40,878 nucleotides of DNA, from IMG/VR virus record IMGVR_UViG_3300042938_001120, positions 1 through 40,878 of that record. One strand, 5' to 3'. Numbering within the stretch: position 1 is the stretch's first letter; each line of letters opens with the position of its first letter. Position numbers and translations under genes: made by a program. Positions 3,470 through 40,878 of this stretch are shown one piece after another. The DNA comes from a virus. The notes beneath the pieces are model-generated. The model was not told where the DNA came from. It ran no database searches and saw only the letters and a list, made by a program, of their open reading frames with translations.

Positions 3470-4273
3470 CTATCCAGAGAAAGGTTGATGCACAGCCCAA
3501 TTGGGCAGCGTCAACTCAACTAGATCCGGCGAATACGTCGCCTGCACCAGCTCCGGTTGCTGCGCTAACTTGAACCCTTTCGCGGCCTTAGCCATAAACG
3601 CGCGTCCTGACTGCAAGCCCGCCGCGTCGATGACGTAGACGCCAGTCGCGAAAGGCGGCTCGCTCTCCACAGCGATGAAGCAGAACCGATCCAGCGGCTT
3701 GCCGTTTATCGCTTCATAGCCCGCCGCGTAGTGCGCTGCTTGCAGATGATACTGAAACGCACCGATCTGTCGCGCGAACCCTTCCGCGCTTGCATCCTGG
3801 CAGGTCTTCAGATCGAAGATCACGTTGCCTACGAGATAGTCCACGCGCGCTTTGCACGGCAAATCGTACTGCTCCCACAGCATCGTGATTTCCGCATCGC
3901 CCCCCTTCATGTATTCAGCCACGAGAGGATGAGCAAGCGCGCTGTCGGCAATCGCGCGAGCCTTCTCATACTGATACTCGTCCAGGATGATCTTGCCTTC
4001 GTTATCCGCCTCGAAAGATGCGGCAGCTTCCTTGCCGAACTTGGTCCGCTTATCCACCTTCGGCATGATCGCGAAGTCTTTCTCGAAGTCGTCCGGCTCG
4101 AAGACGAGCGTGTGGCACAGCGTCCCTAGTCGCATGGCTGCTGTTGGCTCGCGAGGGTTTGCCAAGCTCGCAAGATAATGCGCAGGCGACTTCAACAACG
4201 TCTTGGCTGTCGACGCGCTCAGCGCCTTGATCTTGTGGTAGTCACTTGCTGGCAGGCTTTTTATCATTTCCAT
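3470..4273 (-). CDS. PD-(D/E)XK exonuclease, YqaJ/RecE (exo VIII) type
   Basis: 267 residues. The opening SASTAKTLLKSPAHYLA and the RLGTLCHTLVFEPDDF segment match phage RecE-type exonucleases (PDDEXK_1, DUF3799). The catalytic core is visible as acidic residues near 120-128, D145 in RVDYL and D154-L-K156 in FDLKT, followed by QIGAFQYHLQAAHYAAGY, the conserved Q-H-Y motif. It would degrade one strand of duplex DNA for single-strand-annealing recombination. No annealase (RecT, Erf or Beta) is recognised nearby; the SSB-like protein may be the partner. Ribosome site AAGGAAAAG. Confidence 0.85.
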   Translation of the reverse strand: MEMIKSLPASDYHKIKALSASTAKTLLKSPAHYLASLANPREPTAAMRLGTLCHTLVFEPDDFEKDFAIMPKVDKRTKFGKEAAASFEADNEGKIILDEYQYEKARAIADSALAHPLVAEYMKGGDAEITMLWEQYDLPCKARVDYLVGNVIFDLKTCQDASAEGFARQIGAFQYHLQAAHYAAGYEAINGKPLDRFCFIAVESEPPFATGVYVIDAAGLQSGRAFMAKAAKGFKLAQQPELVQATYSPDLVELTLPNWAVHQPFSG

Positions 4274-21624: not shown

Positions 21625-22542
21625 TTACGCTGAGATCAGGTTGGCGATCACAGCGTGTGCTTTCTCGGACTTCACCCTCAAGCCGTATTCGACCACCATC
21701 TCCTTCTTGTCCGAGTCGCCGGTCTTGGCGATATCGAACGTGCGGAAGGGGCGGAGGTAGGACACACAGGCGTACTCAGGGTCGAGCACGAAGGCGAAGT
21801 TGCCGGGCTGGAAGCGGTTCGGAACAATGGAGACTTCACCGAAGTCGCCAAGGTAGATGTCCGCCGTCGCGATGATCTTCATCGGCTGGGCCTTGGTGTA
21901 GTTAATGCGCTGCTCAGCAAGACCGGCGAAGGCAGAAGCCACCGTCTTGTTGTAGGCATTCACCATGAGGATCTTGGGCTCGCCACCCTGCTCCCAGACT
22001 TCCTGAATAGCGGTCTTGAGCATCGTCTCGGTGAAGGCAACGTCAGTCGCCGTCGAGAGGTTTGTCCAAGCCGTGTCAGGATAGCCGTTGCCGCTCGCGC
22101 CCGACATCGCAGAAACGGTTGCGCCGTTCGCCTGCGAGTTCGTGATGAGCCACGTCGGAAGACCAGCGGTCTTACGAGCTGTAGACGTGCCAGAGCCAGC
22201 GTCGCCAGCTTGGTTCGACGTGAGGATCGCCTCCATATCGCGCTTCAGCTCTTTCGCCTTCTTTGCCGTCTGGTAGGCCATGACGGTGCGCATACCGGCG
22301 TTGTTCGTCGAGTCAGCGGTGCCAGAGACCGAGATCACCTTCGTGGAGATCTGGGTGTAGTTAGCCACGCGAACAGTCGGATCAAAGTCGGCGTTACCTG
22401 CGTCAGCGCCTTCAATCGCCGCGTTGGCGGTGTTGGCGTTAGCAAGCGCGTCCGTCTGCCACTCGAAGTACGTGTTGGACGCGGTGTCGCGGCCAATGTT
22501 GGACATAAATGGCGTGTCAACTGGACTAATATCGTAGATCAC
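21625..22542 (-). CDS. Major capsid protein, exon 2 (residues 23-327)
   Basis: The bulk of a DUF5309/SU10-type major capsid protein. The exon begins VIYDISPVDTPFMSNIGRD and continues with TYFEWQTDALA, TKVISVSGTADS, YQTAKKAKELKRDMEAIL, PKILMVNAYNKT and a C-terminal EMVVEYGLRVKSEKAHAVI, all typical of the family. The exon has no usable start codon of its own at the family N-terminus. Reading back gives 68 intron-encoded residues (MKMYGLGN... RYVN) that do not look like capsid. Joined to exon 1 at 23544-23609 it gives 327 residues, the usual length, with the junction DLAN-VIYDISP restoring the conserved N-terminus. Confidence 0.9.
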   Translation of the reverse strand: MIYDISPVDTPFMSNIGRDTASNTYFEWQTDALANANTANAAIEGADAGNADFDPTVRVANYTQISTKVISVSGTADSTNNAGMRTVMAYQTAKKAKELKRDMEAILTSNQAGDAGSGTSTARKTAGLPTWLITNSQANGATVSAMSGASGNGYPDTAWTNLSTATDVAFTETMLKTAIQEVWEQGGEPKILMVNAYNKTVASAFAGLAEQRINYTKAQPMKIIATADIYLGDFGEVSIVPNRFQPGNFAFVLDPEYACVSYLRPFRTFDIAKTGDSDKKEMVVEYGLRVKSEKAHAVIANLISA

Positions 22543-23543
22543 CGTTTTGTTAACGTAACGCATTTTATTCGTTACATCTCGCCGTTTCCGACGAGCCCAG
22601 ACTATATCATCCCTTTTAATCGGGCCGGGCGCTCGTGGGCGGATTATTCTTTCGTCACCGCCTAGTCGTTGAACCTTCATCCACCCTGGGGCTGACGCCT
22701 TACGTTGGATGCTTGGCTGCTGATTGCCCAATCCATACATTTTCAAGCCCTCACGTTTGCCGTTACCGGCTGCGTTGTGGCTGTATGGCTCTCAGGGGTT
22801 TCCAGCAATTCACCCGGTTTTCCATGATGTGACTTCCAGTGGCACTGACCACAGAGAGACACGCCATTTGAAACTTCATAGCGAAGTTCAGGCGCTTTTG
22901 AGAACGGGGCTACATGGTGCGCGTGAAGCAGTGTTTTTGCGCCGCAGCACTGGCAAATCCTGCCCTGCTCGACGCCACACTCGATACACTTAAATCCGTC
23001 CCGAGTGAGAACGGAAATTTTCCATGCAGAATACTGCCTGTTCGAACGAGCCAACTTGTCGCGAGCGGATATTCCGCCCCTCCAGTTGCTCGCCAACTCA
23101 CCGGTACGCTTTGTGAGAGCGTCGGCTATCTTGGCGTTGTGCTCTGGTGTCCGAACATGCCGCTTGAGGCGCTCAGAGCGAGACGGCCCTTCAACCCCAA
23201 GCTGCTTCAACCGAGTAAAAACAACGGTTTCACTTACACCATATTTCTCAGCAACTTTGGACATGCTCATTTCCGAAATGGCGCGCTCTAATTCCTCTTT
23301 CGGAGGGTCAAAGCTCTTTTTCGGACCACGAACATGATCTCCACGCTGTATGCCGTAAGTCCTCATGCGGTAATAAACAGCACCAGATGTCACCCCGTAC
23401 ATAGAGGCGATAGCCGTTCCTGGATATTGCTGCACAAGCTGTTGCATTTTATCTCGGTCTACCCGTTTCCAGTCTTCCATAATCCCCACCAGGCCGTTCA
23501 CAACAAGCGAACTATGACCTAACTGAGAACAGCTAAGTTGTCA
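22543..23543 (-). ncRNA. Group I intron in the major capsid gene
   Basis: 1001 nt, phase 0. Exon 1 ends in U and the intron ends in G, as required. P1: exon GCGAAU pairs with IGS GUUCGC (23512-23507), with a U·G wobble at the splice site. P10: the 3' exon GUGAUC pairs with GGUCAU (23519-23514), one base before the IGS. The P1 loop holds a 7-bp hairpin UUAGCUG/CAGUUAG. Core: GUUCAACGACUA (22674-22663) and GAUAUAGUC (22608-22600) form P7 by GACUA/UAGUC. Two 3' hairpins follow: CUCGUC/GGCGAG (P9) and GUAACG/CGUUAC. An HNH gene lies upstream of the core. Confidence 0.9.
22743..23480 (-). CDS. Intron-encoded HNH homing endonuclease
   Basis: 245 residues from ATG at 23480, preceded by GGTGGGG; a GTG at 23501 is the longer alternative. 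Two N-terminal helix-turn-helix-like repeats (PGTAIASMYGVTSGAVYYRMR and KVAEKYGVSETVVFTRLK) and a NUMOD-like basic region (RTPEHNAKIADALTKRTGE) precede a zinc-ribbon HNH domain with C-x2-C pairs (CIEC, CQCC, CGQC) and LHAHHVAPFSKAPELRYEVSNG. It would cut intronless capsid genes and so spread the intron. The ORF stops just before the intron catalytic core. The first helix-turn-helix repeats probably read the insertion site. Confidence 0.85.
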   Translation of the reverse strand: MEDWKRVDRDKMQQLVQQYPGTAIASMYGVTSGAVYYRMRTYGIQRGDHVRGPKKSFDPPKEELERAISEMSMSKVAEKYGVSETVVFTRLKQLGVEGPSRSERLKRHVRTPEHNAKIADALTKRTGELASNWRGGISARDKLARSNRQYSAWKISVLTRDGFKCIECGVEQGRICQCCGAKTLLHAHHVAPFSKAPELRYEVSNGVSLCGQCHWKSHHGKPGELLETPESHTATTQPVTANVRA

Positions 23544-23609
23544 ATTCGCGAGGTCTTCGCGGATAGCGTTGACCGAATCGTAGGTCGTAACTTTGGATAC
23601 AGATGCCAT
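23544..23609 (-). CDS. Major capsid protein, exon 1 (residues 1-22)
   Basis: 22 codons, MASVSKVTTYDSVNAIREDLAN, are too short for standard ORF calling. ATG at 23609 is preceded by AAGAGGTAACTACC. The sequence VTTYDSVNAIREDL is the usual N-terminus of DUF5309 capsid proteins. The reading frame hits TGA immediately after the predicted 5' splice site, so only spliced mRNA makes capsid. It lies six bases downstream of the scaffold stop codon. Confidence 0.88.
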
Positions 23610-23614
23610 GGTAG

Positions 23615-24640
23615 TTACCTCTTGGAGTCGAGCATCATAAAGATTGCAGCCGCATCTTCGACGCGGCCAGATGATTTGAGACGCTGGTTTGCCTTGAGGA
23701 CATCAGTTTGCTTGCGAGGCGAAGAGTTCAACGTACCTGGTCTCATGGGCTTCGGAGCAGCAGCCTTCTGGGGCTGTGGCCGATTGGCCTGAAGAGAATC
23801 CCAACGTCGCGCTTTTTCAAGAACAAGGATGGCTCGGGGGTCGAGAGCAGCGTTTAATTCATCCTCCGAATAACCGACCTTCTGGCCGTATTCGCGGAGC
23901 TTTCCACGCGCCTCAGTCCACTTCGCTTGATCCTTCCATTCAGGCATTTTCTCGAAGATGTATTTCGCGCCATCCTCTACCAGTTGCTGCCTTTGCTGCA
24001 TTTCCCGGTGAGACATTTCCTGGGTAAGACGGGCCTGCTCCTGCTGGACGGCAGAAACATTGGCCTTGTAGTCTCGCCATTGCTTCTCAATAATCGGAAA
24101 ATTGATGGGGTCGTCCTGATGAAGCCTCTCCCAGTCAGGCTCTTGCGGAAGATAACGCTGCATCTCCTGCGCAAGCATGTTGATTGAGTTTTCATACTGT
24201 GACCGCATCGCAGCAATATGCTGTTCCTGGGCCTGTATGGTCTTGCTTCGTTCCGCAACCTCCTGCGTCTTTCGGGTGTAATCGGACTGCCTCTGATACC
24301 CCGCCAGAGCCTCCTGAAGCGTAACCTTCTGTTCCTTGCCATCGACAACGACGGTGTAGAGAGAGTTATCTTCGTCTTGCTCGTCCTGAGCGTCGTCTTC
24401 AGTCTCGGCCTCTTCCGCCTCACCTTCAGGGGCTGAATCATCCTCAGATGACGCCTGCTCAACCTCATCGGGCGCGTCGTTGGCGGCTTCCGCCGTCGCC
24501 TCAGTCTCTTCGACTTCGGCAGAGCCAGCACCTTGCTTCTTCCCATCCGGTTGCGGCGAACCGTCCATCAGGAGAGAAATGCGTGATGCAGCTTCTGCAA
24601 GGCCGAGTTCGCTAGGCTGCGATTGCTCAGCTTGTGACAT
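23615..24640 (-). CDS. Capsid scaffold protein
   Basis: 341 residues, start ATG 24640 after CTGAGGAGTAATAAT. Residues ~25-92 are a long acidic, disordered stretch rich in Glu, Asp and Ala; the middle is a long coiled coil (RSKTIQAQEQHIAAMRSQYEN, VSAVQQEQARLTQEMSHREMQQ); the C-terminus is basic and small (PKPMRPGTLNSSPRKQTDVLKANQRLK), likely the capsid-binding helix-turn-helix. Order portal, scaffold, capsid is standard. It guides procapsid assembly and then leaves the shell. Confidence 0.85.
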   Translation of the reverse strand: MSQAEQSQPSELGLAEAASRISLLMDGSPQPDGKKQGAGSAEVEETEATAEAANDAPDEVEQASSEDDSAPEGEAEEAETEDDAQDEQDEDNSLYTVVVDGKEQKVTLQEALAGYQRQSDYTRKTQEVAERSKTIQAQEQHIAAMRSQYENSINMLAQEMQRYLPQEPDWERLHQDDPINFPIIEKQWRDYKANVSAVQQEQARLTQEMSHREMQQRQQLVEDGAKYIFEKMPEWKDQAKWTEARGKLREYGQKVGYSEDELNAALDPRAILVLEKARRWDSLQANRPQPQKAAAPKPMRPGTLNSSPRKQTDVLKANQRLKSSGRVEDAAAIFMMLDSKR

Positions 24641-37289: not shown

Positions 37290-39500
37290 TTACTCGCCCA
37301 CGATCCAGTACCACTCGCCCCAATTACCGGTCAGCTTTTTGTCCTTAAGACCCTTTTTGGCGTCGAACCAAGCATCTCGTTCATTTTTGCCAGCCTCCGC
37401 CGTCGTTTCGCTTTTCCAGTAATTACGCCACAGACTTTCTTTCACGCATTTGACGCCAGTCGGGATGTGCTCCCCCGCCGTGCTAGGTAGCTCCCCGGCG
37501 TCGTTGAGCGCCTTTTTAAGCGCCTTGAACGCTTGCCCCTGGTAACCATCCGGCGAGTTATCTACCGACTTTCTGGCGACCGCTTGGCCCAGCGCGTTGC
37601 CGTCGATAGGCTCCAGGGCGAGCGATGTGGCGTCAGGGTCTAGCGGATTGAGAGCGACAAGATGCAGCCGGAACCCGAACCGCAACCCGTCCTCGCCGTC
37701 CTTTTGTTTGGTTATTGTTAAGCTTCCCACTCTGTCCGGGCTTGTTTCTGCGCTCACCTTTTCGCAATGCAGTTCCGTATCGACCGCACCGAGCAGGGCT
37801 GACGATCCCCGCATAGTCGGGTTCTGGCTGTTCTTGGCGCTGTGGTGGATGATGACGACGGTACAGTTAAATTCCGCTTGGATCGCCCCCAGGATCGCAA
37901 TACACGCGCCCACATCCTTCGCACTGTTCTCATCCCCGATGAAGATGCGGGCGAACGTGTCAAGGAAGATCGCGACCGGCTCTAGCGCCTTCTCCCTGAT
38001 CGCAGAAAAAAGAGCTTCCATGTCCTCCAGCGACGTTGACAGATTGAGCTGCGCCTTGACGAAGTGGACGGGCAGGTTGTCGTCAAACCCTTGATGCTGC
38101 TTGAGCGCGTCAGTCCGCCTTTTCATGCCCGCGCCGCCTTCCGCAGCCACGTAGATGACGCTCCCCTGCGTCACCGGCTTGCCGAACGTCTCCCGCCCGC
38201 TGGCGATCCCTGCCGCAAGGTAGAGAGCGGCGAAAGACTTCCCACTCCCAGGCTTGCCGTAAATCGCTGCGAAGGATGATGCAGGCAGAATGTCCTTGAC
38301 CAGCCACTTGACCGGAACATCCTGCAAATCCCGCCACGGGATCAGGTTCACCCTCTTGCGTTGCTTATCTGCGGGCTTGGTTTGTTCACTTGTCAGGAAA
38401 GCTGAGACCTGTACGCTGGCAGGTTCGGCTTGGCTGGCTTGGCTGACGCTGTTCATAGGCCGCGTCTCGCCTGCCACTTGGCGCGAGGCTATTTGCTCCA
38501 CGATTGACGGCTCAGGCGCACGCTGCGGAAGCAAAGCCCTAGCCGCTGCCCTCCGATCCCCTCCAAACCGCAGGACCGTCGCCAGCTCGAAGGGGTCGCT
38601 AACCTTCTGCGATAGCGGATCTGCGCTGCCGTGGTGACTGTACGTGCACCAATGGCCTTGTGAGCCACGAAACACCACAACGCCGCAGGTTCCCGATTCG
38701 CTCCCCGGCCTCATATACCGGTAGCATTGCTGCCGCCTATCGAAATACCCAAACCGATAGCCTGCGCCTTCCAAAACATCCCGAACCCAGTCGAGGCTGG
38801 CAGCATCGTTGAAAGCTCCGAACGCAGACGCTTCGCTGTGGCCCACAGATGGCTCAGGATTGGCGTGCCGGGTCTTAGCGGCATGTATCTGCGCCTCCGC
38901 CTTGCGCCTGCCCTCCGCCCAGTCCAGAGCGGCGCTAACATCGAAAGGCAAACCGTCGCTCGCGATTGCAACGAAATGCGCCTTGTCCTCTTCGCTGCGA
39001 ACACGCGGCAGGAACCAAGGCTGCGACCATCGCCGCGCTTCCACTACGTCAGCCAGGAAGATGCCGGAACCGTGAAGCTGGGCGATGATGTAGTCCAGAC
39101 AATCGCCCAGCTCAGAGGGCGAGCGCAGAAACGCAGGAAACACGATGCGATACTTCCAAAACCCATCCTGCGGGCGTGCGCTGTGGCTCGTGTGCGCCAC
39201 GAACCGCAAGCCCATGTCCTTGAGACGCTCCGCCATGATGGGCAACGGAGGTGCGCCTGACGACACTTCCCCCGTAACCGGATCAAATGTCGAATCAGCG
39301 TCCAGTATCAGCAGCTCAGCTTCCAGCAGGTTTTCGTCGCTGCGTTTGTTGGCCTTCAGCTTCCCGCCCCGGATGTAGTAGCTGCCATCTTTGTTCCCGA
39401 CCCTGGGCGACATCAGCCGCGAGCAGAACCCATCCCACGTATATGCTTTGACGTGCATCTCCGTGTCCGTCGCGCCCCCCACAGCGTAGGCCAGCAGCAT
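37290..39500 (-). CDS. Primase-helicase (RepA-like AAA/RecA ATPase fused to primase-like domain)
   Basis: 736 residues from ATG at 39500, chosen because GGAGGAAGC precedes it (39539 is an upstream in-frame ATG). N-terminal ~200 residues: AELLILDADSTFD with paired acidic residues, then FVAHTSHSARP and WKYRIVFPAFL, as in archaeal-type primase-polymerase domains. The C-terminal domain is a RepA/KaiC-like helicase: Walker A GKPGSGKS near 414-421, Walker B AIFLDTFAR, and VVIIHHSAKNSQNPTMRGSSALLGAVD. It probably drives phage origin unwinding and priming. It ends beside the iteron-like array. Confidence 0.88.
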   Translation of the reverse strand: MLLAYAVGGATDTEMHVKAYTWDGFCSRLMSPRVGNKDGSYYIRGGKLKANKRSDENLLEAELLILDADSTFDPVTGEVSSGAPPLPIMAERLKDMGLRFVAHTSHSARPQDGFWKYRIVFPAFLRSPSELGDCLDYIIAQLHGSGIFLADVVEARRWSQPWFLPRVRSEEDKAHFVAIASDGLPFDVSAALDWAEGRRKAEAQIHAAKTRHANPEPSVGHSEASAFGAFNDAASLDWVRDVLEGAGYRFGYFDRRQQCYRYMRPGSESGTCGVVVFRGSQGHWCTYSHHGSADPLSQKVSDPFELATVLRFGGDRRAAARALLPQRAPEPSIVEQIASRQVAGETRPMNSVSQASQAEPASVQVSAFLTSEQTKPADKQRKRVNLIPWRDLQDVPVKWLVKDILPASSFAAIYGKPGSGKSFAALYLAAGIASGRETFGKPVTQGSVIYVAAEGGAGMKRRTDALKQHQGFDDNLPVHFVKAQLNLSTSLEDMEALFSAIREKALEPVAIFLDTFARIFIGDENSAKDVGACIAILGAIQAEFNCTVVIIHHSAKNSQNPTMRGSSALLGAVDTELHCEKVSAETSPDRVGSLTITKQKDGEDGLRFGFRLHLVALNPLDPDATSLALEPIDGNALGQAVARKSVDNSPDGYQGQAFKALKKALNDAGELPSTAGEHIPTGVKCVKESLWRNYWKSETTAEAGKNERDAWFDAKKGLKDKKLTGNWGEWYWIVGE

Positions 39501-39581
39501 CGTGGCTTCCTCCGTCTCATGCGTCGTTGTCAGCGTCATCGCGTGCCCACCCTCAAAAAGTGTCCCTACCCTTAAGAAAAA

Positions 39582-39603
39582 CCCCCGCTTTTGAGGGCGG
39601 GGG
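39582..39603 (-). terminator. Intrinsic terminator (second copy)
   Basis: Same 7-bp CCCCCGC/GCGGGGG stem as 489-510, followed on the minus strand by a better U-tract, TTTTTCTT. Located between the SSB-like gene and the primase-helicase. Confidence 0.78.
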
Positions 39604-39611
39604 CTTAAATC

Positions 39612-40241
39612 TTAGAACTCTTCGTCGTCCGCTGGCTTTGCTTTTGGCATCGCCTTGGGAGCTGGTTTCTCCGGCTCTGGGGCGGAAGATGCAGCGCCAG
39701 CACCCTCGAACATCGTAGGATCAACCCAGCCCGCGATGCTCCACTTGGGAACCTTAAAGCGCAACTCGCCCTGTTCCTTCGTTTGCATCTTAACTGTTTC
39801 CGTTCCGGTTACATTGACGATAGGAAACTGACCGGGATGGGCGGAAGCCGCAGACACAAACTGATCGTGCAAAGCATCGAACGCCCGCAAAACGTTCTTC
39901 GATGTGTTGGCGAACTCCCGTAGGCCGTGCTCCTTCAGGAAGATCTTGATTCGGACACCCTGCTTGTGGTCCGGTGTTGGGCGCGCAGGCATGGGGTTCC
40001 CAATCTGCGCCATCGTGAAGTCCACTGCGCCAGGCTTGAAGCTAATCCAACCCACTTCCATGTTCGCAAAATCAGCGACGAACTTGAATGGCGTCGGCAG
40101 CTCCAGCTCTGTCTTTTCCCACGATCCGTCGCTTTGCGGTTCGCGATTGACCGCCAGCCAATCCCCAGCCTTCGCATCGAACTTGATGACGGGGAGAAAG
40201 TTGCCGCCCTTTTTCTCTTCCAACGAAAAACCAATTGCCAT
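39612..40241 (-). CDS. SSB-like single-stranded DNA-binding protein (copy 2)
   Basis: 209 residues from ATG at 40241 with AAGGTGGATC upstream; the longer upstream frame (to 40457) runs through the neighbouring gene and is rejected. It is a homologue of the copy at 527-1165. Both share MAIGFSLE, KFDAKAG, INREPQSDG or VNREPQSDG, DHKQG and KNVLRAFDALHDQ, but core residues differ at many places and the linker is different (GAGAASSAPEPEKPAPKA). The acidic end is DDEEF, again with terminal Phe. Confidence 0.7.
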   Translation of the reverse strand: MAIGFSLEEKKGGNFLPVIKFDAKAGDWLAVNREPQSDGSWEKTELELPTPFKFVADFANMEVGWISFKPGAVDFTMAQIGNPMPARPTPDHKQGVRIKIFLKEHGLREFANTSKNVLRAFDALHDQFVSAASAHPGQFPIVNVTGTETVKMQTKEQGELRFKVPKWSIAGWVDPTMFEGAGAASSAPEPEKPAPKAMPKAKPADDEEF

Positions 40242-40263
40242 TTTGATCCACCTTACTTTGATT

Positions 40264-40747: not shown

Positions 40748-40878
40748 CTACTTCAACGCGCCATAGTACGCGATCAATGCGGCCTCTGCTCGCCCATCGT
40801 GTTTCTTCAGTGCGAACTGGTCCGCGTATTTCGGGAACAGCTCCGCAGCACGCTGACGGCTTCCATCCTTGCCTTCAC
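40748..40878 (-). CDS. RuvC-like resolvase, C-terminal fragment at window edge
   Basis: The last ~43 codons of a resolvase gene, with the final residues GALK and a TAG stop (the first copy uses TAA). Codons from ~40811 on are identical to 1745-1812. The rest lies beyond the window. It supports that the window end wraps onto the same locus as its start. Confidence 0.85.
   Translation of the reverse strand, partial: EGKDGSRQRAAELFPKYADQFALKKHDGRAEAALIAYYGALK

Follow-up and report, generated by a model that had tools for sequence, protein, structure and literature searches.

A group I intron carrying an HNH endonuclease gene interrupts the major capsid gene of an uncultured bacterial virus

We find that the major capsid gene of an uncultured bacterial virus is interrupted by a group I intron that carries a gene for an HNH endonuclease. 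The sequence analysed is a metagenomic virus record from IMG/VR (IMGVR_UViG_3300042938_001120, 40,878 bases, classed as linear), hereafter referred to over its full length as the window. The capsid gene is of the SU10 type (DUF5309), lies on the minus strand and consists of exon 1, the intron and exon 2 (Table 1). Our reading, to which we assign a probability of about 0.96, is that a mobile group I intron with an IA-like layout interrupts the capsid gene of a tailed phage, would splice itself out to give an mRNA for a 327-amino acid capsid protein, and would home by means of its HNH enzyme; splicing in vivo, the cleavage specificity of the enzyme and homing itself are predictions that we draw from the sequence.

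Table 1. Features of the interrupted capsid gene and its intron (positions in the window).
Feature	Position	Strand	Basis
Exon 1, major capsid gene, 22 codons (66 nt), MASVSKVTTYDSVNAIREDLAN	23544..23609	-	Joined frame; in one piece with exon 2 in L001 and other intronless relatives
Group I intron, 1001 nt	22543..23543	-	RF00028, 69.3 bits at 22889-22578; limits fixed to the base by the empty site of L001
Exon 2, major capsid gene, 305 codons plus stop	21625..22542	-	SU10_MCP 7.4e-93; phrog_1328 major head protein 7.3e-97 (exon 2 alone)
Head scaffolding protein gene, immediately preceding exon 1	23615..24640	-	phrog_3927 7e-64
Intron-encoded HNH endonuclease, 245 aa from ATG 23480, N-terminal helix-turn-helix region	22743..23480	-	Pfam, phrog_8446
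P1 internal guide GUUCGC; partner is the exon 1 end GCGAAU, 23549-23544; U.G at the splice site	23507..23512	-	Sequence
Putative P10 guide GGUCAU; partner is the exon 2 start GUGAUC, 22542-22537	23514..23519	-	Sequence only; invariant among holders
P3 5' strand; partner 22631-22625	22811..22817	-	Changes on both sides in 3/6 pairs; all cells paired
P4 5' strand; partner 22723-22718	22802..22807	-	Changes on both sides in 3/6 pairs
P5 and P5a 5' strands; partners 22729-22727 and 22739-22733	22782..22797	-	P5a: changes on both sides in 5/7 pairs
P6a/P6b hairpin	22678..22711	-	Changes on both sides in 8/9 pairs
P7 5' strand GACUA; partner UAGUC, 22604-22600; guanosine-binding helix	22663..22667	-	Invariant in 10 introns
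P7.1 hairpin GGCGG...CCGCC	22638..22662	-	Changes on both sides in 2/5 pairs
P8 hairpin	22611..22624	-	CCC/GGG, CGC/GCG and CAC/GUG among relatives
P9 hairpin CUCGUCG-GAAA-CGGCGAG	22578..22595	-	Changes on both sides in 5/7 pairs
P9.2 hairpin GUAACG...CGUUAC	22555..22575	-	Changes on both sides in 5/6 pairs

The limits of the intron can be placed to the base. Exon 1 opens with an ATG at 23609 and ends in GCGAAT, which is followed immediately and in frame by a TGA (23543-23541). The reading frame is picked up again 1001 nt further on, at 22542 (GTGATCTACGA; the longer stretch reads GTGATCTACGAT), directly after the last intron base, a G at 22543. Joining 23544 to 22542 yields an open reading frame (ORF) of 327 codons for amino acids, and a shift of exon 2 by a single base in either direction breaks the frame. 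The exon and intron coordinates, the 22-codon exon 1, the TGA and the length of 1001 nt had all been put forward in an initial annotation of this DNA and are borne out here. That annotation also suggested looking for intronless relatives, and one of them, L001 (94% identity in the exon 2 protein), has the exact empty site, in which GCGAAT runs directly into GTGATCTACGAC. The junction is uninterrupted in 79 of the best 80 capsid relatives in IMG/VR (L001 included), which are a sample rather than a measure of frequency and do not include the identical L081. Among these relatives (L001-L080), 40 distinct intronless junctions were seen, the last exon 1 codon being AAC in 28 and AAT in 12. The intron-bearing alleles end exon 1 with T in every case; a synonymous C at this position would leave the splice site without its U.G pair.

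Exon 1 is an integral part of the capsid protein. Exon 2 taken together with its intron-derived extension matches the Pfam family PF17236 (SU10_MCP) with 7.4e-93 and 311.7 bits from profile position 17, while the spliced protein reaches 322.6 bits over residues 9-324 (profile 8-291), that is, over nearly the whole protein with exon 1 included. Adding exon 1 thus moves the start of the match from profile position 17 to 8 and gains 11 bits. Comparison by phmmer, made with solved proteins only, aligns the spliced protein with the SU10/DUF5309 capsids 7z45 and 9ny2 (PDB) from residue 7-8 to near its end, and the alignment to 9ny2 is gap-free across the exon junction. Both the Pfam gain and the gap-free alignment place exon 1 within the DUF5309 protein, as had been proposed. 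Within the record we found no second capsid gene that might make the interrupted one dispensable. The only capsid gene of the record is therefore the interrupted one, and it must be expressed.

The intron RNA has a complete group I core. A covariance-model search against all Rfam families (4 kb searched) returned the group I family RF00028 with an E-value of 1e-16 and a score well above the gathering score of 50, as the initial annotation had anticipated, and in the Rfam scan the capsid-gene intron is the sole group I intron of the record. The proposed P1, P7 and P9 and the further 3' hairpin, here P9.2, are all present. For evaluation of the fold, a structure comprising P3, P4, P5, P5a, P6a, P6b, P7, P7.1, P8, P9 and P9.2 was drawn up on the window sequence and scored on 10 distinct intron cores, of which about 120 nt are comparable. 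Over 57 base pairs, 99.5% of the cells are paired, and 32 of the 57 pairs show compensatory changes on both sides. The covariation score was reached by none of 500 shuffles, and pairing falls to 32-41% when the partners are slid against each other. RNAalifold independently predicts the same helices except for the pseudoknotted P7. The P1 guide tracks its exon from intron to intron (GAAU/GUUC and GGAU/GUCC, with GCCU/GGGC at a second insertion site described below). The hairpin P7.1 lies between P7 and the 3' strand of P3, which we take to indicate an IA-like layout.

The possibility that the intron is dead, with the capsid made from a start inside it (TTG 22746 or ATG 22740) as a protein of 371-373 aa that lacks exon 1, was weighed and appears very unlikely. 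In the window and in its relatives L082 and L083, the frame of exon 2 does extend upstream for 83 codons free of stops, and a Shine-Dalgarno-like GAGG lies ahead of ATG 22740; the mechanical ORF list accordingly gives a 373-aa ORF starting at TTG 22746, the very error that had been predicted for gene callers. Against a start within the intron, however, in the more distant introns at the same site stops lying within 1-21 codons from exon 2 shut the upstream frame, exon 1 has been retained and forms part of the capsid fold, and where the 3' half of the intron has changed between L082 and the window, it has done so by compensatory base pairs (P9.2), as in an RNA under selection. Gene callers misreport the N-terminus of such genes, here by 68 intron-coded residues and the loss of exon 1.

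The intron-encoded protein is an HNH endonuclease, with matches to Pfam HNH (30.8 bits, cut-off 21.4), HTH_50 (28.1 bits) and the HNH endonuclease family phrog_8446 (8.3e-24); among solved structures it has no sequence relative. Because L083 has a 1-nt indel ahead of the ATG at 23480, this codon is a better candidate start than the GTG at 23501. The gene had been described as lying upstream of the ribozyme core. It is indeed encoded within the intron, but its codons pass through the 5' strands of P3, P4, P5 and P5a and its stop codon (22743) falls within the P5 loop, so that the description as simply upstream needs correcting. Nuclease genes that overlap core elements are known from Bastillevirinae phages (PMC11878797). 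Between the window and L083 the dN/dS of the HNH gene is about 0.12; the enzyme is therefore maintained by purifying selection.

Introns at this site are not confined to the window. Scanning for a pattern made of the 3' strand of P7 and the start of exon 2, with filtering for capsid homology and then for a displaced exon 1, identified 22 further contigs with a group I intron between the same two capsid codons. L224 and L239, in which no exon 1 was recognised, were excluded from this count. L122, L195, L228, L236, L238, L252 and L256, together with the group L204-L219 except L209 and L213, were rejected, since in them ATAGTC occurs by chance within or ahead of a capsid gene that is uninterrupted. 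The same-site introns represent 11 distinct sequences with lengths of 294, 321, 351, 814, 948, 952, 1001 or 1002 nt, and all seven representatives tested exceed the Rfam threshold. The forms of 294-351 nt are without a long ORF, and those of 814-952 nt encode HNH proteins that have the helix-turn-helix region and the HNH domain in common with that of the window. Outside the window's own group, the capsids are 42-57% identical to that of the window (the 57% figure extends over 136 aa only). Related introns thus occupy an identical spot in distantly related viruses, and their insertion seems to favour one conserved codon of the capsid gene. Two side observations concern these contigs. In the ORF-less same-site intron at L112:339-689, P4-P6 resembles the second-site intron of L002 and P7.1 resembles L155, as if the core were a mosaic; and the viral contig L144 matches the Rfam Betaproteobacteria-1 RNA at 3540-3658 (95.8 bits, threshold 49.4).

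The same collection bears on whether the element is a ribozyme and whether it is real. Inteins and translational bypass elements can also carry HNH-type genes, and the HNH gene would by itself fit either of them. In all 11 same-site introns, however, exon 1 runs in frame into a TGA or TAA as the first intron codon, and this rules out an intein; a length of 1001 nt far exceeds known bypass gaps; and the element has a complete, covarying group I core, so that we regard an intein or bypass element as exceedingly improbable. An assembly artefact that joined an intron and capsid halves from different molecules is, in our estimation, just as remote. The record does come from a metagenome, and the 80% similarity of its two ends hints at strain mixing elsewhere in it; yet the same intron sits at the same base in L081 (identical), L082 and L083, which come from other records (100, 94.5 and 85.2% identity over the intron, respectively), and related introns fill the site in 19 further contigs. 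The similarity of the ends involves positions 1-1171 and 39094-40247 (80% identity over about 1.2 kb) as well as 1683-1812 and 40749-40878 (130 nt at 91%), and extends over the beginning of a helicase-like gene and over a paralogous gene next to it. Either the duplication is genuine, or two strains of one permuted genome were joined where they overlap.

A group I intron would act here as follows. The intron RNA would fold into its catalytic core with the guide paired to the end of exon 1 (P1), and guanosine-aided self-excision would join the exons into the mRNA of the 327-aa capsid protein. A T before the intron and a G at its end are found in all 11 same-site introns and in the second-site intron. 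The stop at the first intron codon would end translation of exon 1 and probably keep ribosomes off the core; an in-frame stop with the upstream exon is recognised in many such introns and thought to aid folding by halting the ribosome (PMC3984707). The HNH endonuclease would presumably cut the intronless capsid gene of co-infecting relatives around REDLxN-xIYDISP (the hyphen marking the junction), and the intron would be copied into the resulting break.

Comparison with the nearest relatives documents movement of the intron. Between the window and L082, dS is 0.10 in the HNH gene, compared with 0.73 in the scaffold gene and 0.57 in exon 2; likewise, the intron is 94.5% identical, compared with 82% for the scaffold gene and exon 1. 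Movement or recombination of the intron between these genomes is thus more recent than their separation. L083 presents the reverse picture: its core is 97% and its nearby exons are 96-97% identical to those of the window, but dS in the HNH gene is 0.87, and the endonuclease part therefore has a history of its own. With presence and absence at one site, transfer between genomes and selection on the HNH domain, the intron is, by all these sequence signs, mobile. Free-standing HNH_3 genes directly follow the capsid gene at L082:5929-6396 and L083:2762-3235, two different ones, with none at this place in the window; endonuclease genes seem to have a hot spot around the capsid gene. Another free-standing gene of the same Pfam type is located on the minus strand of the window at 1214-1639, near the record end.

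A different group I intron, of 933 nt, was found 21 nt downstream (DISP-VDTPF) in L002 and L213. It scores 48.9 bits against RF00028 (E-value 1e-10), just below the gathering score of 50, encodes another type of HNH protein (275 aa) and has a guide that fits its own exon. The capsid of this gene is 100% identical to that of the window over residues 1-29 and 95% identical over residues 30-327, so that two different introns hold neighbouring sites in closely related genes. In L002 (1117-2010), no stop closes the exon 2 frame anywhere in the second-site intron; these 310 codons overlap the HNH gene, which is read in a different frame, and gene callers would give a capsid fusion of 596 aa.

Searches were extended to bacteria and isolated phages. 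In a collection of 84,980 bacterial genomes, a pattern of P7 plus an IYDI(S/T)P-like motif occurred in 50 stretches, none of which encodes a capsid relative, and no prophage copy was found in this way. Among 50,697 phage records, blastn with three intron queries gave, at the sensitivity used, no capsid-gene intron of this kind among the matches listed; related cores in isolated phages were matched only over short stretches in other genes, for example in the polymerase-gene region of Phikzvirus PA7 (about 148 nt, 72%).

HNH-bearing group I introns are a common finding in essential genes of phages, and phage capsid genes with introns have been described before. The mycobacteriophage LittleE has an intron with a homing endonuclease gene in its major capsid gene, the splicing of which was shown by RT-PCR and protein sequencing (PMC3706429). 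It resembles the window in having intronless relatives, a U at the end of exon 1 and a G at the end of the intron, but differs in its HK97-like capsid, its 819-bp intron, its LAGLIDADG-like gene on the opposite strand and its unproven intron class (PMC3706429), whereas the window has an SU10-type capsid, a clear group I core and a sense-strand HNH gene. The same paper cites a group I intron in a capsid subunit gene of the lactococcal phage Tuc2009; going by that citation, host and gene differ from those of the window, and the likeness is one drawn from its description. In Phi-PA3, the HNH endonuclease gp210 is encoded by a group I intron of the RNA polymerase beta subunit gene and suppresses a co-infecting phage (PMC11620839); like that of the window, this intron interrupts an essential phage gene at a motif of high conservation, though the gene is a different one. 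Bastillevirinae phages have several HNH-bearing group I introns, including, besides the overlap of gene and core mentioned above, two different introns in one gene (PMC11878797); a capsid-gene intron is not reported there (the term is absent from the paper). In the literature searched, no paper was found that combines DUF5309 with introns. Given the capsid-gene introns on record, the intron of the window belongs to a known kind and is not a new kind of element.

The part worth following is the single insertion site common to divergent capsids (42-57% identical), together with the second intron 21 nt away. We tentatively raise the possibility, which we hold to be somewhat less probable than even, that mobile group I introns have homed repeatedly, in several phage lineages, to the REDLx(N/D)-xIYDISP junction of SU10-type capsid genes, that a further site lies 21 nt downstream of it, and that the HNH enzymes may serve as weapons against co-infecting intronless phages, whose capsid gene they would cut. 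Empty, ORF-less and HNH-bearing alleles at two sites form a natural series in which the target choice of homing endonucleases and competition between phages can be probed. For the virus itself, the major capsid protein is normally among the most abundantly made phage proteins, and its supply would therefore depend on efficient RNA splicing.
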